Of a DNA stretch of 25,113 nucleotides, positions 13,687 through 22,873 are shown piece by piece (position 1 is the stretch's first letter; every line of letters begins with the position of its first letter). Below the pieces are notes generated by a model. That model was given only the letters and a program-made list of their open reading frames with translations. It did no database searches and was not told the DNA's origin. Position numbers and translations under genes: made by a program. This DNA is from a virus. The stretch covers positions 1 through 25,113 of the IMG/VR virus record IMGVR_UViG_3300044712_002117; one strand, written 5' to 3'.

Positions 13687-15015
13687 TTATCCGAGCTTGA
13701 CGCGCACGAAAGCTTCTTCGAGCACGGGCATCGCATCGGTTTCCAAACCGGCATGGAAGCCGATCTGGTTGGTTTCGGAATATAACTCGATCAAACGCTG
13801 GAATTCCATATCCAGCGAATCGGCGATGTGATAGAACGAGAAATCGCCGAGGATACCCACATACAGACCGGTGGTCATGGTATTGGGCGCATATTCCGAC
13901 ATGAAGATGGGCAGGTTGAGCAAACGATCGGGCTCACCGGCGCGCACACTCTCGCGCCAGATGTAATCGCCGTTGACGGCATTCTTGATCTTGGCGATCA
14001 CCTTCACAACATCACGATGGAAGAGCCATTTGGCAGTGGGCCAGTATTGCGGCTTGAGTGTGTACTTGGCATTGGTCAGACCATCGAAGGTCGGCGCCGT
14101 GGTCGTGTTGTCAGTGCTGACATCGCGACCGGTGCTGATGCCATTGACAGAGGCAGTGAATACACCCAACGGCTGGCGGGCGCCATTGCCGGTGAGGAAC
14201 CCCTTTTCCTGCGTGACGCCGAACTTATAGCGGAAGCGGTCAATGACCATGCCTTCCACATCCGGGCGTAAGCGCAGGAGTTTGCGTGAGACCTTAATAC
14301 CTTTGCGTAATGGGTTCGGGCGCAGCTCACGCTTGCCGAATGCCATCGAGCTATCGAAGGTGATGTTCTTGACTTCCGCGGTCCACTCACCATCGTCGGG
14401 ATCCGCATCGAGACTCACTTCCCCGAGTGAATCACTGCCGATCACGGGGATAACCGTCGCCCAACCGGGCTGGCGGAAGAACAGGAAGTTATCCACGGCT
14501 TTGAGCAGGCGTGCGACAAAGGCTGGCGGCGGCTTGAGATAGCCCGCGGAAATATCGGTGCTGGCATCCAGAGCGCGGCGTTCCAGTTGTGGAACTGCCA
14601 TACCACGCAGGAAGGCGCCGAAGGCATTGGCATATGCCGGGGTCATACGAGCTTGATAACGTGCCCGCACAGTCTCATCGATCTGCGGGTTTGAACGCAC
14701 TTCGCGCATTGGAGCCAGATAACGCTCGGGGATGTCTTCCAGCCCACGCATATCCTGCGCACCGCTGATGCCCATATCACCCGGATCTGATTGTGTGGAG
14801 CGGGCTTCGCTGGCGTTGAGTTCAGTCTCGGTTGCTTCGAGCTGCTCGCGCCGATCGATATCCGCTTTCAGCGTAGCCACTTCATCCATCAAGGCGTTGT
14901 AACGATTCTCTTCTTCCTGCACCATTGCCCGATGTTGGGCATCGGCAGCTTCAAGGATCGCGCGCGCTTGAGAGACCAGGTTGGCACGCTTTTGTTTAAG
15001 TTCACGTACGGTCAT
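13687..15015 (-). CDS. Major capsid protein, HK97 family
   Basis: The protein has 442 residues. Residues 1-75 are a charged coiled coil (the delta/scaffold domain), followed by a linker to about 145. Then comes the family opening ALDASTDISAGYLKPP, the helix FVARLLKAVDNFLFFRQPGWATVIPV, and the HK97-fold body with KNITFDSSMAFGKRELRPNPLRKGIKVSRKLL, TGNGARQPLGVF, and FMSEYAPNTM...GILGDFSFYHIAD near the end. The opening is where prohead-protease cleavage normally leaves the mature N-terminus, so processing near residues 130-150 is expected (inference). AAGGAG precedes the ATG. With the adjacent protease and no separate scaffold gene, the delta domain would serve as scaffold. Confidence 0.97.
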   Translation of the reverse strand: MTVRELKQKRANLVSQARAILEAADAQHRAMVQEEENRYNALMDEVATLKADIDRREQLEATETELNASEARSTQSDPGDMGISGAQDMRGLEDIPERYLAPMREVRSNPQIDETVRARYQARMTPAYANAFGAFLRGMAVPQLERRALDASTDISAGYLKPPPAFVARLLKAVDNFLFFRQPGWATVIPVIGSDSLGEVSLDADPDDGEWTAEVKNITFDSSMAFGKRELRPNPLRKGIKVSRKLLRLRPDVEGMVIDRFRYKFGVTQEKGFLTGNGARQPLGVFTASVNGISTGRDVSTDNTTTAPTFDGLTNAKYTLKPQYWPTAKWLFHRDVVKVIAKIKNAVNGDYIWRESVRAGEPDRLLNLPIFMSEYAPNTMTTGLYVGILGDFSFYHIADSLDMEFQRLIELYSETNQIGFHAGLETDAMPVLEEAFVRVKLG

Positions 15016-15803: not shown

Positions 15804-17849
15804 TTATCTCCATGCTGTGATCATGCAATCACAGCCATCGTGGGCGGGCGGATGCCCAATATCGTTATTAACTCGCAGGGGACTATCAGCACCTTCCGGC
15901 TGGTAGCTTTCACCGGAAGCAATAAAGGTTTGTTCGACGCCCACCACGGCGCCATCCAGGTTGGAACAATACGGGCAGGACTTGTTGAACGAACGCCAGC
16001 GGATCTTCACGAAGCCTGCCGCCACATACACCATGCGTGCAGTGGCATTGTTCTCACGCGTAGACTCCAGCCGTGCGATCTCATCCGCACGCACATCCTG
16101 ATATGCATCGAGTGACTCATCCAATGCAGCGATCGGGTCTTCAGTCTCCAGCGCTGCCTGGATCCGCTTGCGAACATTCTCCAAGCTGATACCGGCATGC
16201 CGTGCTGCGTACATGTTGATGTAACTACGCACGAAGCGGTCCACCTGGTCGTTGAATTGTCCATCGGTAGCATTCACTTCATCGCCTGCCACACCAGCTA
16301 CCATATCGGCATAGGCGCTCATCACCGGTGTGAATTGACGTCGCACCAGTTCCTCATGCCGCTGGTAATATTGGTTGAGCCATAGATCCATTGATTGCGC
16401 ATCGCGCTTGCCTAAGCTCTTCTTGGCGGCATCCATCACATCGCGCATCTCGCGTCGTAAGACTCTCGCCGCCGTGTCGCGGAAGACCTTGCGCTGCGAT
16501 AACATCATGCGCCTGCGTGATGCCGCTGAGCGATTGGAGCGCAACTCACGATCATCAACAGTAGCAGCAGTGGCTCGTGTCTCAATGACTGGCGCATCTG
16601 CTCCACCGAGGTATCGCAATCCAGTAGAGTTATTTCCATCAACCGGCTGACTTAATTGATCAATAGTCGCCAAGTTGAGCGGAGCGAGATACACGTCACC
16701 ACCTTTGTATGGGTTCATGTTCTCTTTTTCACGGGCTTCGTTGGGGGATAAGAAACCCGTGGTTATACCTTGCACGAAAGCGGTGTAACGAGTTGCCAGA
16801 TCTGCACGCAGCAGGGCATCCACCAGGTGTTCAGCAAAATAGGTTTTGCGTTCGGTTGGGGTTAGCAAACTGCGGGAGATCTCCTGCTCCCAACGCACGA
16901 ACCAGGGCTGCATCGTGTACTTGATAAAACGTTCCCCGAATTGTTCAACGCTGGCATACGTCGCAGCTTTATCGCTTTCCGCCAGCATATCAAGCGAGAT
17001 ACCATACAACCGCGCGATGTCGGCGGTACCATATTGCAAGATACTTAAGAGTTCGGAATCTTTGTTGTCGACCCCAAGTTTTTCAACGCTCAAACCGTCT
17101 TCCAAAATGGCAAGCCGATGAGCATTCTCCAGCCCACGATGACGCGCTTCCCAATCACCCTTGATGCGTAAATAGGCTTTGTCGCTCAACTCTTTATCGC
17201 TCTTGAGAACAATGCCTGGCTCAGCGTTGTTGCCAAAGAAACGCGCGATATATTCCTGCACAGCCATTGACATGCCGATGGAGTGACGTGACTGTTGAAT
17301 CGGACTCAATGCCCATAAGCCATTGGTGGTGAACCAGCGTATATGCAGAATGTGATCTGAGGGCAGCCCCACATCCTGACCGCCTACTGAATCGGGCAAA
17401 GTGTAGATATAAACCAGCTTGCCATTGACGCGTTCCATTCGACGGACTTTGTCAGGGTTGAGCGGCCAGAGATACTTCACCCGCCCGGCATTATCGAACT
17501 CGATCTCGGAGAGTCCATTACCACGCAATGCCACATGTCCGGTGATCGTCTGCCGATAGGTCATGGCAGTCATCTCGGGGTTGGAAACTTCTCGCAGAAT
17601 GGGATATAGGTAATAATCATGAGCGCGGGTTTGCCCACGTTCCAGGCGTTTATAGGTGATCAGCGGCAGCATTGCTTCAACGTCTGAAAGTAACCGCACG
17701 CAGGAGAGTACACTCATATTTTGCAGAGCTGTCTCAGGCGTGACTTCCACACCGCTGTTCGTGTCCCACCCATACGCAGAGCGCAGCCAGCTAGGTGGCT
17801 CACTGCTGGGATGGAAACGTTTCTGCACCATGCTTGGATTCGGTAACAC
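15804..17849 (-). CDS. Portal protein fused to a MuF-like head morphogenesis domain
   Basis: The protein has 681 residues. Residues 1 to about 400 are an HK97-type portal: VLSCVRLLSDVEAMLPL near the start, TGHVALRGNGLSEIEFD, the DHILHIRWFTTNGLWALSPIQ motif, NNAEPGIVLKSD, and the YASVEQFGERFIKYTMQPWFVRWEQEISRSLL helix. From about 440 to 681 there is a helical region ending in a MuF-type C-terminus: W-x-SFNKSCPYC-SNLDG (Cys 625, 628) and IGHPPAHDGCDC (666-675), with the Cys/His spacing of that family. Portals normally stand alone with MuF as the next gene; here both are in one frame. The start is GTG at 17849, right after the previous TAA, with GGAG nine bases upstream. Confidence 0.92.
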   Translation of the reverse strand: MLPNPSMVQKRFHPSSEPPSWLRSAYGWDTNSGVEVTPETALQNMSVLSCVRLLSDVEAMLPLITYKRLERGQTRAHDYYLYPILREVSNPEMTAMTYRQTITGHVALRGNGLSEIEFDNAGRVKYLWPLNPDKVRRMERVNGKLVYIYTLPDSVGGQDVGLPSDHILHIRWFTTNGLWALSPIQQSRHSIGMSMAVQEYIARFFGNNAEPGIVLKSDKELSDKAYLRIKGDWEARHRGLENAHRLAILEDGLSVEKLGVDNKDSELLSILQYGTADIARLYGISLDMLAESDKAATYASVEQFGERFIKYTMQPWFVRWEQEISRSLLTPTERKTYFAEHLVDALLRADLATRYTAFVQGITTGFLSPNEAREKENMNPYKGGDVYLAPLNLATIDQLSQPVDGNNSTGLRYLGGADAPVIETRATAATVDDRELRSNRSAASRRRMMLSQRKVFRDTAARVLRREMRDVMDAAKKSLGKRDAQSMDLWLNQYYQRHEELVRRQFTPVMSAYADMVAGVAGDEVNATDGQFNDQVDRFVRSYINMYAARHAGISLENVRKRIQAALETEDPIAALDESLDAYQDVRADEIARLESTRENNATARMVYVAAGFVKIRWRSFNKSCPYCSNLDGAVVGVEQTFIASGESYQPEGADSPLRVNNDIGHPPAHDGCDCMITAWR

Positions 17850-18352: not shown

Positions 18353-18705
18353 GGTTTTCCAAAGGTGATGGTGGCTGCGCCGGTCAACAAGGACCAGATC
18401 AACCCGATCATCGAAACGCCAAAGATGGTGGCAACCCAGACGCCGATCTGATACCCGAGCCACATCACATTAACCTTCTTTTTGACATCGTCCACGTCCG
18501 TAGAAAGCGTGGACATGTTTTTGCTCATGGACACATAGCCATTTTCAGCAGCGCTGACGCGATCCTTCATATTCATGATCACGGTCATCGCATCTCGCAG
18601 GACTGTGAAAGCAAAACGGAGACCGATCTTGGTCGAGAGATCGTCTTGCTCAAGTAAGTCGTCGATCTGCTGAAGCAGATTGTCGTTGCTGGATGCTGGT
18701 GCCAT
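18349..18705 (-). CDS. Coiled-coil protein with C-terminal membrane anchor (XhlA-like layout)
   Basis: The protein has 118 residues. Residues 1-75 are helical and charged, with a heptad-like stretch ending in SKNMSTLSTDVDDVKKKV; a single hydrophobic helix of about 25 residues follows (LGYQIGVWVATIFGVSMIGLIW), then a short tail. The order coiled coil, helix, short tail is like the XhlA group of lysis-associated phage proteins, though the sequence is not convincingly the same family. The ATG overlaps the upstream stop as TAATG. With its neighbours it forms a small membrane-directed module. Confidence 0.68.
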   Translation of the reverse strand: MAPASSNDNLLQQIDDLLEQDDLSTKIGLRFAFTVLRDAMTVIMNMKDRVSAAENGYVSMSKNMSTLSTDVDDVKKKVNVMWLGYQIGVWVATIFGVSMIGLIWSLLTGAATITFGKP

Positions 18706-19037
18706 TACGCTTTAAATGTCTCGATCGCACGCGCTAAATGATGAATGGCTTCAGCCAAAGCGCTCGGCACTTCTTCCAGGCTGATCACATCCACATATTC
18801 GATGCTGCCATCCGCTTCCCTCACGCGGACCCACTCAGGCTTGGTCGGGTTTTGCGGGACGAGGCGTGCGTAAGGCACACCATTGATGTTATGAATGCTG
18901 TAGGCTTGCAATTGTTTTCCCACTGCTTCTGTGCGCAACCGGATCGAGCCATCCGACTCTGCTCGCGGAGTATCTCGCACGATCAAGCCGCGCGGCTGTT
19001 TGACGATCAATAGAAATCTTGGTGCTTCTTGTGCCAT
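18705..19037 (-). CDS. Possible SH3-like domain protein, first gene of the small membrane module
   Basis: A 110-residue protein. Two adjacent ATGs at 19040 and 19037 follow AGGAG at 19047-19043; the second has the better spacing. The stretch FLLIVKQPRGLIVRDTPRAESDG..., with a later PEWVRVREADGSIEYVDV, resembles a bacterial SH3 domain (LxVRxxP, then a W-V-x-V strand), which often binds cell wall or peptides. The C-terminal ~25 residues form an amphipathic helix. It is about 18 bases downstream of the terminator of the structured RNA, so its expression probably needs read-through or an antitermination step. The SH3 assignment is tentative. Confidence 0.68.
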   Translation of the reverse strand: MAQEAPRFLLIVKQPRGLIVRDTPRAESDGSIRLRTEAVGKQLQAYSIHNINGVPYARLVPQNPTKPEWVRVREADGSIEYVDVISLEEVPSALAEAIHHLARAIETFKA

Positions 19038-19056
19038 CATTACTCCTGTTATGTGC

Positions 19057-19095
19057 AAACAAAAACGCCCGACGACTCATGTGAGTCGTCGGGCG
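19057..19095 (-). terminator. Intrinsic terminator
   Basis: A 14-bp perfect stem (arms CGCCCGACGACTCA and complement at 19066-19079 and 19082-19095, with TG at the plus-strand centre) is followed on the minus strand by GTTTTTGTTT, a U-tract. There is no U-tract on the plus side, so it works for minus-strand transcripts. It ends the small RNA and probably reads from the two-gene cassette, and lies just upstream of the first late small gene. Confidence 0.9.
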
Positions 19096-19187
19096 CATCA
19101 GTTCCGACTAGCGTCCCGGTCTACACCAGGACTGCATAAATTATATAAATGTGGCGAGCGGCTTGAGGGGGGCAAGTCGCCCACCAC
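19057..19187 (-). ncRNA. Candidate structured small RNA (about 130 nt), three hairpins
   Basis: A self-contained transcription unit. From the predicted start G19187 the RNA forms (1) a 15-bp stem, GTGGTGGGCGACTTG with 19165-19151, loop CCCCCCT; (2) after an A/U linker, a 7-bp stem GTCCTGG/CCGGGAC with a 6-base loop at 19132-19113; (3) the 14-bp terminator stem. Stem 1 contains two G-U pairs and one A-C mismatch read as minus-strand RNA; read as plus strand the wobbles become C-A mismatches, so the minus strand is the folded one. There is no open frame of useful size. I do not recognise an RNA family. Its G19187 start coincides with the first stem base, as expected for a real RNA 5' end. Confidence 0.72.
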
Positions 19188-19193
19188 AAAAAT

Positions 19194-19222
19194 AGTTTAG
19201 CATTTTGAATTTAATATGTCAA
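19194..19222 (-). promoter_or_regulatory. Promoter of the structured small RNA
   Basis: A perfect -35 TTGACA (19222-19217), a 17-base spacer, and -10 TAAACT (19199-19194; four of six consensus bases). The predicted start is six to seven bases on, at G19187, the first base of stem 1. Unlike the two promoters at 20710-20848, the spacer holds no GAAC-N4-GTTC palindrome. Confidence 0.7.
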
Positions 19223-19279: not shown

Positions 19280-19744
19280 CTATTTATTATCTTTTCTGGA
19301 TGTATTATGATTTTCGAACTGCAAAATCACAAAGACACTATTTGCTGTGTCATACAAAATATAAATAGCATACGAGAAGATGGCAACCAAGATTACTTCG
19401 GTAATGAAGGTCACTAATGGATAGTTCGTACTGATCAATGAACTTGATCCGATTACTTGGGTGATAAGAGCAAGAACTACTAAGGCGATTTGTTCAGCAA
19501 TAGAAGCTTTCATCTCTTTAGCCGTTCGAGAAAAATCTCCTCCAAGCTGATCTGATATTTCTCGAATTTTAGTCAACACAACACTTATTGTAGTTGTATT
19601 GATTGCCACTAATGCAATTAATAATGTAATCAAATTCTCAGACAAAAATTTTGAAATGAAATTGGATTGCAGTTGATGATCCAGCCAAGTAATCAAAATG
19701 CCAACCACAAGGAACAAACTTATATTTTTTGCGTGCTCCATCAT
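19280..19744 (-). CDS. Four-helix membrane protein of AT-rich two-gene cassette
   Basis: The protein has 154 residues. Hydrophobic helices are at about 8-22, 36-58, 83-98 and 108-131; between helices 2 and 3 is a charged cytoplasmic loop with KIREISDQLGGDFSRTAKEMKAS. The end, NHNTSRKDNK, is polar. The ATGATGG start overlaps the stop of the upstream gene as ATGA, so the two are made together. Base composition is much more AT-rich than the phage genes on either side, a sign of recent acquisition. The pair looks like a lysogenic-conversion cassette; a membrane effector of an anti-phage or superinfection-exclusion system is one possibility. No family recognised. Confidence 0.75.
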   Translation of the reverse strand: MMEHAKNISLFLVVGILITWLDHQLQSNFISKFLSENLITLLIALVAINTTTISVVLTKIREISDQLGGDFSRTAKEMKASIAEQIALVVLALITQVIGSSSLISTNYPLVTFITEVILVAIFSYAIYILYDTANSVFVILQFENHNTSRKDNK

Positions 19745-20604
19745 TGCAACATCTTCCTTAATTGATCAACCAAATCTTCCGGGATGTTCTCGCCAGTAAA
19801 ATATATCTCATCTACTTCGGTTGATTTGATACTGTCCTCTGTTTTAATTAATTTTCTCAGCCCCTTGATTTTCAGATGTACTGTTCCCCCTCCTTCCGAA
19901 GCGTAATTAACTAGACTATTAGTGAAACTGTCACTTTCTGATAATGTCAACGACTCCTTATTTGGGGCCTGCAATGAAACATTCGTATGTAGTGAATTCG
20001 TTCTGCTTTTTATTTCTCCTAAATCCAATTCTAGTCCTTTAGATATATTAGCTAAATTAGGCGCAACCATATAAAATTGCGTCTTTGTAATTCGATTAGT
20101 ATGACTTTTAACAATATTCCAAAATTCGTTCTTTACAAACGTGGGAAGTACTTCTAATGTCAATCTGTAATTACGGAGTTTGTCATTTATATTTGAGATT
20201 AGAATATTGGAAACTGTTGACGTTCTATAAAAAGCCTCTTCTTCAAGTTCTATCGCTATCATTTGGCTATTTGGATCATTATTTATAACCACATAGACGG
20301 ACGGCCAGTTGTCAATTTCCTCCTTTTCAAAATCCTTTGTAAATCTGGTCAAGCTCCTATTTGCACCAATTTTCAGAACAAAGTACCCATTAACTTCATG
20401 AAGTTGATGAGTTAGTTCTGCTCGTGGATGATGGAATTCATTTAGATTCCGAATTACATCAGCAAAAAATTCATTTTTTCTGCTCTTTAATTCTTCTAAA
20501 CTCAATATTTGCTTTTGAGGGAAAAATAGGTCTAATTGTTCTTCGACGATAGTTGGCAGTATTTGAAACCGATACAACTGGAATGTGCGGCTGGTCTTAT
20601 TCAT
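19741..20604 (-). CDS. Unrecognised protein, putative partner of the four-helix membrane protein
   Basis: A 287-residue protein from ATG at 20604 with AAGGGG about eight bases upstream; an earlier ATG at 20652 overlaps a TATAAT and has a weak site. It has no membrane segment. Residues 1-110 start FQLYRFQILPTIVEEQLDLF, with a Lys/Glu-rich helix and a VVINNDPNSQMIAIE strand-turn; residues 130-185 have NDKLRNYRLTLEVLP and FYMVAPNLANIS; residues 230-260 have NYASEGGGTVHLKIKG, like a nucleotide- or nucleic-acid-binding beta element; the end is helical. I recall this kind of protein as a stand-alone family with conserved L.RFTKDFEKEEI.NWP.V.VVINNDP but cannot name it. It is AT-rich and driven by tandem LexA-box promoters. 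Confidence 0.75.
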   Translation of the reverse strand: MNKTSRTFQLYRFQILPTIVEEQLDLFFPQKQILSLEELKSRKNEFFADVIRNLNEFHHPRAELTHQLHEVNGYFVLKIGANRSLTRFTKDFEKEEIDNWPSVYVVINNDPNSQMIAIELEEEAFYRTSTVSNILISNINDKLRNYRLTLEVLPTFVKNEFWNIVKSHTNRITKTQFYMVAPNLANISKGLELDLGEIKSRTNSLHTNVSLQAPNKESLTLSESDSFTNSLVNYASEGGGTVHLKIKGLRKLIKTEDSIKSTEVDEIYFTGENIPEDLVDQLRKMLQ

Positions 20605-20709
20605 AAGAAGCCCCTTCACGATGAAAACAATTATTGAAACACGAGTTTTCATTATATCACCGCTTTTTTAAGAGCATGCCGCGCATTGTTTAGCCAGTTA
20701 TTTAAATTT

Positions 20710-20738
20710 ACTATAACAGAATATTTGTTCTATGTCAA
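20710..20738 (-). promoter_or_regulatory. Promoter B with LexA-like operator in spacer
   Basis: -35 TTGACA (20738-20733), 17-base spacer, -10 TATAGT (20715-20710). The spacer holds AGAATATTTGTTCT at 20718-20731, a palindrome with one mismatch in its five-base arms and the core of the Gram-positive SOS box. It points at the AT-rich cassette, leaving about 100 bases of leader. Regulator (host LexA or phage repressor) is inferred. Confidence 0.75.
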
Positions 20739-20773: not shown

Positions 20774-20812
20774 GACAAACGCCGGGGTGAGGGGGGCACC
20801 CAAGCGCTTGTC
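20774..20812 (-). promoter_or_regulatory. C-loop hairpin at the 5' end of the promoter A transcript
   Basis: A 16-bp stem (GACAAGCGCTTGGGTG with 20789-20774, two G-U wobbles and one U-C mismatch in minus-strand RNA) closes a CCCCCCT loop. The first base, G20812, lies at the expected start site of promoter A. Loop and stem length match stem 1 of the small RNA at 19151-19187. It could be the start of a second small RNA or a 5' leader element of the two-gene cassette mRNA. Confidence 0.75.
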
Positions 20813-21160: not shown

Positions 21161-22873
21161 TTATCCGATCATCCGCATGCCGCGCTTTTCGTAGACACTT
21201 TTAACTTCCGGATGACGTAATGCTAGGTCAATCGCCATGATCAACGCTACCATCCCGTCGATCTTTTCGCGGCTCGCAGCTTTGTCTGGCTTGATGTTCC
21301 CGGCTGGGTCCATGCGTGCGACCAGGTTATCAGCCATCCATGTGAGCACCGGGTTGTTGCCATGTCGTATCTTTTTACCAAGCACCAAACGTTCCAGCTC
21401 TTTCATGGGTGGGTTCATACTCGCGAAGCCTTGTCCAAATTGTGCCATTGTCATGCCTTTCTTTTCGAGTACCTGCACCACACGAGCTGCTCCCCAACGG
21501 TCGAAGGCGCTTTGGTCGATATCGAACATCTCGCGGTCCTTTTCGATCTGCTCGAAGATCCAGTCATAATCGATCACGTTCCCTGGCGTGGCTTCGATAT
21601 AGCCCTGCTCAACCCATTGTCGATAATGCACACCATCATCGCGGGTGCGGATCAGCATGTTATCCTCCGGGATCCAGAAGCGACAGATCACGTCAATGTA
21701 ATCATCGTCATCTGGAAAGACCATAACGAATGCTGTAATGTCTGATGTGCTTGATAAATCCAAGCCTCCATAACAAGTCATATCCTTCAGCCGCTTGGGC
21801 ATTTCCAAGGCAGGAACTTCACCTGCGCACTCACGCCAGCGGTCCATCGGCATCCACTTGATCTCGCCCTGCACCCACACATTCAACTCACGCCGTAGGA
21901 AGTTGTTGAGCGCCGCTGCCATCTGCTCGGCGCGCTTGGCTTTCATACGCAGATCCTCGATATATTTTGAGACTCCCAGGTTGGGGTTGGCTTTGATCCA
22001 CACGCTTTCATCGCGCCAATCATCCCCATCATCGAGGGTGTAGATGATGCCGAACCAGGTATCGTCTTCGAATGATCCGTCTTTCCAGCCCTCGAGTACC
22101 TTACGGGTGTATTCGTGTTTCTCATAACACACACTGCGACGGTCAATGCCAGCCGTAGTGATGGCGATGATCATTGGCTGTTCACGCGAGCCAGTCGCAG
22201 TCTCAAGCACATCCCACATCTCACGCGACTTCCAGGCATGGAGCTCATCAGCCACGACTCCGTGGACGTTAAGTCCGTCCGTAGAATCCGAGTCAGCTCC
22301 CAACGGTTCGTATTTGCTGGCGGTTGCTTCGAGATTGAGATTATCTTTATAGACCTTGATGTACTTCCGCAGCCCAGCATTTTTACGGACCATACGGATC
22401 GCTTCTTTATGCACGATGCGAGCTTGATCCCGTTTCGTCGCAGCGCTATATACTTCCGCGCCTGGTTCGCCATCTGCAAACGCCAGATACAAACCTTCAC
22501 CACTCGCCTCTGTGGATTTTCCGTTCTTCCTTGCGACCTCTTTGTAAATAACACGGAAGCGCCGCATCCCATCGGCACGCATCCAACCAAACGCCACCCA
22601 GATCGTGAATTGTTGCCACGGTTCGAGCCGGATAAAGTCACCCTTCCCACGTCCCCACTTCCCCTTGGAATGCCGGAGCATTTGAATGAAGTCGATAACG
22701 TATTGGCCTGCTGCTGCATCAAAGTAAAAACCGCGCTCATGCGCATGCTCAAGGTCGTGCACGTGACGTTCGCATGCCAGGCGCACCCACTTGCATGCGA
22801 CGATCTTGCCGTTGATTACATCCTGTGCATACTGTTCAGCAGGATGTAGAACCTCCTTCGTTGACTTTGTCAT
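21161..22873 (-). CDS. terL: Terminase large subunit
   Basis: The protein has 570 residues. N-terminal ATPase: adenine-binding region LEPWQQFTIW (about 83-92), Walker A-like VARKNGKST (113-121), Walker B GVVADELH (205-212, catalytic Glu 210), coupling motif ITTAG (238-242). C-terminal nuclease: Asp in GGLDLSS (about 372), an Asp in FDIDQSAFDRW (about 458), and Asp in REKIDGMVALIMAIDLAL (about 539). It powers DNA packaging through the portal and cuts the concatemer. The protein is of the TerL group associated with HK97-type heads and P27 small subunits. The start has no strong ribosome site and begins five bases after the small terminase stop, so coupling is likely. Confidence 0.96.
   Translation of the reverse strand: MTKSTKEVLHPAEQYAQDVINGKIVACKWVRLACERHVHDLEHAHERGFYFDAAAGQYVIDFIQMLRHSKGKWGRGKGDFIRLEPWQQFTIWVAFGWMRADGMRRFRVIYKEVARKNGKSTEASGEGLYLAFADGEPGAEVYSAATKRDQARIVHKEAIRMVRKNAGLRKYIKVYKDNLNLEATASKYEPLGADSDSTDGLNVHGVVADELHAWKSREMWDVLETATGSREQPMIIAITTAGIDRRSVCYEKHEYTRKVLEGWKDGSFEDDTWFGIIYTLDDGDDWRDESVWIKANPNLGVSKYIEDLRMKAKRAEQMAAALNNFLRRELNVWVQGEIKWMPMDRWRECAGEVPALEMPKRLKDMTCYGGLDLSSTSDITAFVMVFPDDDDYIDVICRFWIPEDNMLIRTRDDGVHYRQWVEQGYIEATPGNVIDYDWIFEQIEKDREMFDIDQSAFDRWGAARVVQVLEKKGMTMAQFGQGFASMNPPMKELERLVLGKKIRHGNNPVLTWMADNLVARMDPAGNIKPDKAASREKIDGMVALIMAIDLALRHPEVKSVYEKRGMRMIG

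Follow-up and report, generated by a model that had tools for sequence, protein, structure and literature searches.

Detailed knowledge of late-gene antitermination comes mainly from lambdoid phages, where it is brought about by a DNA-bound protein. In lambda-type Q systems, a sigma-dependent pause occurs at a −10-like site in the early transcribed region. The RNAs recognized by the antiterminators BglG, LicT and SacY contain a small hairpin that shares sequence with the terminator 5′ arm, forms first and is considered to be held by the protein. The Q protein of phage lambda mediates late-gene antitermination at the pR′-tR′ leader through a DNA site (QBE) located between the −35 and −10 elements (PMC6606751), while the put element of phage HK022 is an RNA of about 70 nt with two stem-loops and without a terminator (PMC9378689). 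A promoter of the Gifsy-1 prophage, located next to a Q-like gene, is reported to give rise to both the short terminated small RNA IsrK and a long mRNA produced by readthrough (PMC4825925). The actinobacterial 6C RNA (RF01066) has C-rich hairpin loops and, in Corynebacterium glutamicum, has been reported to be connected with the SOS response (PMC9569102, PMC6789036).

Here we analyse a leader RNA in a 25,113-base viral record of IMG/VR (the whole stretch is called the window). We think it probable that this leader is a late-operon attenuator, similar to the lambda Q system but RNA-directed, in which an antiterminator is held by a factor. If true, it would represent an RNA-based counterpart of late-gene antitermination in phages of a little-studied phylum, the Chloroflexota, namely a compact switch that is present twice per genome and has one clear candidate partner protein.

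Structure of the leader and its position among the late genes

Late genes of the window follow the HK97-type order on the minus strand, on which all features of the window described below are also located. The gene for the terminase large subunit (TerL) is present at 21161–22873, the portal gene at 15804–17849 and the major capsid gene at 13687–15015. The operon containing the portal gene is headed by the leader (19222–19058), and its first gene (18705–19040) encodes a protein of 111 aa with no assigned function, has its own ribosome site and starts (19040) 18 nt past the end of the terminator.

Transcription of the leader is predicted to start from promoter P2 (19194–19222), which consists of a perfect −35 element TTGACA (19222–19217), a 17-nt spacer and TAAACT (19199–19194) with TG before this −10 element, and which is common to the relatives L003, L006, L008 and L010. 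The predicted 5′ end of the transcript forms a C-loop hairpin (19151–19187, the second one in the window) with the loop CCCCCCU and a covariance model score of 60.2 bits. This hairpin is followed by hairpin H1, GCAGUCCUGGU-GUAG-ACCGGGACGC (19111–19135), and by an intrinsic terminator (19058–19096) comprising a 14-bp stem (19096–19065) and a U-tract. Between H1 and the terminator lies the strand GUCGG (19104–19108), which covaries with CCGAC (19088–19092) in the 5′ arm of the terminator, so that the pairing of the latter with GUCGG and with the terminator 3′ arm is mutually exclusive. The RNA from 19187 to 19050 folds at −72.2 kcal/mol compared with a mean of −41.4 kcal/mol for shuffled sequences (z = −8.27), and none of the 200 shuffles was as good. 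No match for the leader RNA was found in Rfam at gathering scores or in permissive mode.

The structured RNA with its own promoter and terminator proposed in the preliminary description of this locus is therefore borne out by the sequence, by the z-score of the fold and by conservation above chance. The promoter and the 14-bp terminator stem with its U-tract are present as described, and two G-U pairs in the C-loop stem pair solely on the transcribed strand, as claimed. However, the C-loop stem, given as 15 bp, is in fact 14 bp long (10 + 4 bp around an A-C mismatch), and the second stem, given as 7 bp, has 8 bp plus a 2-bp extension. At the level of sequence, the element is a fusion of two conserved RNA modules, the 5′ C-loop hairpin and a 3′ module of about 80 nt containing H1, a linker and the terminator. 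The presence of two fused modules calls for a reinterpretation of the element.

The H1-terminator module is present twice in related phages

Related contigs, which are metagenomic, were gathered with the terminase and the 111-aa gene as queries. BLAST and iterated profile searches reveal that the whole region is kept by the nearest relatives only, whereas the 3′ module recurs widely, often twice per contig; it was found in about 30 related phage contigs, usually in exactly two copies. Scanning of whole contigs with a covariance model of the module (R1) places two copies in most of them, usually 6–8 kb apart and on the same (gene) strand. Gene maps show that one copy heads the operon in which HNH, TerS and TerL accompany a holin-like membrane gene, while the other heads the portal/protease/capsid operon. 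The contig of the window stops before its own first copy, and the terminase-operon leader seen in relatives would fall beyond its end. Both copies are present at the same two places in two contigs (G015 and G016) whose TerL is about 28–29% identical to that of the window and whose portal belongs to a different family. The second of these, a viral contig of 67.7 kb, contains two different terminase genes and two module pairs (L316, L317), and represents either two phages in tandem or a chimeric assembly.

Alignment of 45 copies reveals that 97.1% of the pairs are standard in the 8 bp of H1 and the 12 bp of the terminator, and that both partners have changed in 17 of the 20 pairs. Covariation is scored at 0.403, compared with 0.162 for shuffles and at most 0.116 for slid partners. 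Sequence conservation of H1, the most conserved part of the module, exceeds that of the terminator. Related loci with broken stems had been named as evidence that would speak against the RNA; instead, compensatory changes keep the stems intact, both here and in the C-loop hairpin (see below). The view of a free-standing RNA gene stands as far as its own promoter and terminator are concerned, but it is incomplete, as the module is present twice per phage and each copy is the leader of a late operon with a covarying antiterminator pairing.

A 20-base pattern of the element searched in 257 Gb of genomes matched 64 places, but the profile convincingly supports just two of these, L293 and L295. A convincing copy in a bacterial chromosome (L295) was found in a single genome, a MAG titled Candidatus Villigracilaceae (G030), where it lies on a 340-kb contig together with TerL, portal and integrase genes. 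This chromosomal copy suggests that the phages bearing the module have their hosts in the Anaerolineae (Chloroflexota). L293 comes from a MAG titled Bacteroidetes (G031; L293, L372–L374), in which one phage contig is almost the same as a part of G001 and three small contigs contain C-loops; all of these are probably mis-binned. The element was not found by blastn among the named phages in INPHARED. In one copy (L024:2800–2920), H1 and UCGG are retained, but the terminator 5′ arm has apparently been lost through a deletion between two GATG repeats; if the assembly is correct, the terminator would not be indispensable.

A competing pairing, the putative antiterminator, is conserved

In the module, a motif xUCGG is located between H1 and the terminator, and its complement CCGAx lies in the terminator 5′ arm 9–13 nt further on (mostly 10–11), a loop length found in all copies but one that was mis-parsed. 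The 5-bp pairing is complementary at all five positions in 54 of the 56 distinct copies, compared with a mean of 34.4 and a maximum of 43 in 20,000 permutations of the arms; relatedness of the sequences means that these counts overstate their independence, but the pairing types nonetheless recur in both sets of copies. Eight combinations of pairing type are present, including GUCGG:CCGAC, GUCGG:CCGGC, UUCGG:CCGAA, AUCGG:CCGAU, GACGG:CCGUC and GAUGG:CCAUC. When folding is restricted to the nascent prefix ending before the terminator 3′ arm, the median probability of the antiterminator pairing is 0.94–0.98, and it is near 0 if the 5-mer is replaced; in the finished RNA it is about 0. The module thus has two mutually exclusive conserved pairings, one of which is the terminator, as is general for attenuators. 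Its predicted anatomy is that of an antiterminator which is the first to form and gives way to the terminator unless held. The small first-forming hairpin overlapping the terminator 5′ arm is reminiscent of the BglG/LicT/SacY RNAs. However, no BglG-type protein is present, the hairpin is a different one, a separate conserved H1 stands in front of it, and the operons are late operons of phages.

This anatomy suggests how the attenuator might work. RNA polymerase would start at P2, synthesize a leader of about 130 nt and stop by default at the intrinsic terminator, so that a small RNA is released. As the terminator 5′ arm emerges, the xUCGG:CCGAx hairpin would form first and hide the base of the terminator, and a factor that holds this transient antiterminator together with H1 would allow the polymerase to enter the portal/head operon. 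Because the terminase operon begins with the same switch, a single factor could turn on both late operons together, like lambda Q at pR′-tR′. Conservation, covariation, two-copy placement, co-occurrence, competing pairing, promoters and gene order are seen in the sequence, and from these we infer transcription, readthrough, the identity of the factor and any action in trans.

The proposed attenuator resembles lambda Q in having a late promoter, a short terminated leader and the late structural genes next to it, with control expected at the level of readthrough, and also, by position only, in the small candidate regulator gene directly upstream of the first leader. Unlike lambda, each phage has two leaders instead of one, and a conserved RNA module with competing pairing is present here where Q uses the QBE DNA site. 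Terminated and readthrough forms from one phage promoter, as predicted here, are also a feature of IsrK. However, IsrK acts on the translation of its own long form and its abstract mentions no second copy (PMC4825925), and no sequence or structural match to our module was seen.

The C-loop hairpin is also present in Anaerolineae-class chromosomes

Most relatives contain one C-loop hairpin 53–124 nt upstream of the head-operon module, and further away where a cassette intervenes. The hairpin comes directly after a promoter CTTGACA-N-TAAAAT with TAGAAC-N4-(G/A)TTCTA in its spacer. Two C-loop hairpins are present in the window, separated by a 1.4-kb cassette, whereas those of the closest relatives (L003, L008, L010 and L013) are about 100 nt apart. 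The first hairpin of the window (20774–20812; 78.6 bits) is at the 5′ end of the transcript from promoter P1 (20820–20848), which comprises TTGACA (20848–20843), TAAAAT (20825–20820) and, in the spacer, a LexA-type box GAACGTTTGTTC (20837–20826). The C-loop stem consists of 96.5% standard pairs, with 13 of 14 pairs doubly changed and a covariation score of 0.710 against 0.268.

When a 14-mer of the C-loop stem was searched as an exact pattern, most matches were due to chance, and this approach was abandoned. With a covariance model of the C-loop (R2), matches of up to 70.7 bits were found in 37 of 396 sampled genomes of the class Anaerolineae (about 10%), with one to five copies each, and in a phylum-wide sample matches were almost confined to the same Anaerolineae-class genomes. 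One genome (G423) contains three copies spaced about 170 nt apart. Among the 30 host loci that were read (L340–L369), the hairpin adjoins tRNA-Arg(CCU) in 21, often lying just after it. The C-loop RNA has no match in Rfam, either in the phage stretches or in the host loci. Our analysis suggests that the C-loop hairpin is a module separate from the leader and resembles a small RNA of the host chromosome; an sRNA-like family absent from Rfam would thus be common to Anaerolineae chromosomes and their phages.

In having a loop run of at least six C and being a small chromosomal RNA, the C-loop RNA is similar to 6C RNA. The latter has two C-loop hairpins in one RNA, while here each predicted transcript contains one, and the genomes are those of the Anaerolineae class and their phages. 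RF01066 was not matched when nine host loci and two phage stretches were run through cmscan with permissive thresholds. The two RNAs are likely analogous.

The lexA genes of seven Anaerolineae-class genomes (L389–L395) have their own promoter with TTGACAC-AGAAC-N4-GTTC or a close form of it. The box GAAC-N4-GTTC just after the −35 element is the same box, in the same place, as that of the phage C-loop promoter, and this identical position makes it probable that the phage promoter is under LexA control. The accessory cassette between the two C-loop hairpins of the window (19280–20652; two genes encoding 303 aa and 154 aa) has a promoter TTGACA-N17-TATAGT (20710–20738) which, as read from the sequence, contains a LexA-like GAACAAATATTC in its spacer. 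The cassette is AT-rich, its 154-aa product is membrane-like, and neither protein has a match in Pfam, PHROGs or PADLOC. The LexA-like box and the absence of the cassette from the closest relatives indicate that it is probably an SOS-linked accessory insertion.

The preliminary description had also raised the possibility of a regulatory RNA whose C-rich loop binds G-rich sites. In this case the C-loop hairpin would be the active part, pairing in trans with G-rich targets, and H1 and the terminator would merely end and stabilize the RNA. Against a covarying stem, the loop CCCCCCU hardly varies, differing in only two of the aligned sequences (five C in L007 and L015), and the host copies look as expected of a free-standing small RNA, with a TTG.../TA..AT promoter just upstream in all 30 loci and a terminator 15–59 nt past the hairpin in 16 of them. 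However, the terminase-operon copy of the leader has no C-loop, the H1-terminator module always heads an operon, and a competing pairing is needless for a plain small RNA 3′ end. We therefore consider it unlikely as the explanation of the leader, although it may hold alongside the attenuator. In the clade of the window, the terminated RNA would begin with the fused C-loop and might additionally act in trans.

Promoters of the two copies and remaining alternatives

A put-like antitermination element for the downstream operon had been suggested earlier, and this suggestion comes close in function. The leader would then bind RNA polymerase directly and render it termination-resistant without any protein. 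As with putL and putR, two RNA elements per phage with hairpins near the transcript start are present, and those of HK022 are proposed to govern termination (PMC9378689). However, the anatomy is unlike that of put, since the second stem is here an intrinsic terminator with a U-tract. Moreover, put acts on early operons and binds RNA polymerase directly, at the β′ zinc-binding domain, whereas the module is located at the start of late operons and has a terminator at its end. No sequence similarity to put was found, and conservation of the competing pairing speaks for antitermination acting locally. A direct action of this kind on the polymerase is thus very unlikely.

The promoters of the two copies are of different kinds. 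Head-operon copies have TTGACA-N16/17-TATAAT about 15–40 nt upstream, or 57–58 nt upstream in the clade of the window, where the C-loop lies in between. Terminase-operon copies have an extended −10 element TGTATAAT without a −35 element, followed by GAAAGGAGG. A promoter score of at least 10 was obtained for 59% of the copies and for 4.6% of shuffles. Spacers differ between clades, and on inspection no DNA site common to the two kinds of promoter is evident. The transcribed module is common to both, which argues for recognition of the RNA or of DNA inside the module.

In some first copies (for example L037:3420–3470 and L026:3410–3460), GAAAGGAGG is a perfect Shine-Dalgarno-like sequence near the leader 5′ end, without a start codon at the usual distance. 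Its presence in the leader, together with the layout of a hairpin followed by an antiterminator and a terminator, which is usual for riboswitches and leader peptides, raises the question whether the attenuator senses a ligand or the ribosome and times the late genes by the state of the cell. By inspection, no conserved leader ORF has a start codon at a usable distance, and, for lack of a conserved frame, we dropped the possibility of a leader peptide whose end would fall in the H1 loop. H1 is small and without an evident multi-helix pocket, Rfam gives no match, and the module is confined to phages, all of which makes such sensing very unlikely. Ordinary unregulated insulating terminators copied between operons would fit the terminator stem being the strongest part and the likeness of the two copies, but they are hardly to be expected to have an H1 more conserved than the terminator, copies diverged with compensatory changes, promoters directly upstream and an xUCGG that co-changes with the terminator arm.

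A candidate antitermination factor

Clustering of the proteins of 15 phage records, including the Villigracilaceae prophage, yielded terminase, portal, TerS, tape measure, ParB-like and other families, along with family 9, a protein of about 95–130 aa with invariant Cys, His and Trp. It is encoded directly upstream of the first module copy, which is the position of lambda Q; the contig of the window ends before this copy, and the gene is accordingly not visible there. A profile of the family detects 25 distinct genes, 22 of which have a module downstream on the same strand (26–2046 nt away), 14 of them lying within 80 nt upstream of it. Among 396 class-mates of G030, both family 9 and a strong module match are present in G030 only.

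Family 9 has no significant match in Pfam, PHROGs, NCBIfam or PDB sequences. Its AlphaFold2 model (mean pLDDT 84.8) has no significant match in the PDB by Foldseek. Neither its sequence nor its model fold relates the family to Q, and the single viral fold match is weak (E 0.009) and carries no name. Sequence and fold searches did not link it to N, Q or any family of RNA-binding proteins, and scans with single sequences yielded nothing further. Matches to IAP repeats (E 0.002–0.01) look like common Cys/His spacing and were rejected. With one member as the tblastn query, no family 9 was found in the named phages of INPHARED. Judged from its position and co-occurrence, family 9 is the best candidate for the antitermination factor. 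As the first-copy promoters have an extended −10 element without a −35 element, they may need an activator, and this could possibly be the real role of family 9.

Taken in full, our proposal is that this undescribed Cys-containing family binds the hairpin and antiterminator in two late leaders and thereby releases both operons simultaneously, and that the phage also carries, behind a LexA-type promoter, a copy of an undescribed Anaerolineae C-loop small RNA which became fused to the leader in the clade of the window. In this complete form it is put forward tentatively, as possible rather than probable.

Weak R1 matches in other class-mates of G030 (30–39 bits) contain parts of the layout only and were not accepted as copies. 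Weak matches at L301, L302, L304, L305 and L309 combine a hairpin and a terminator with a short motif that is complementary to the arm of the latter, and possibly belong to a wider class of such switches in the Chloroflexota.
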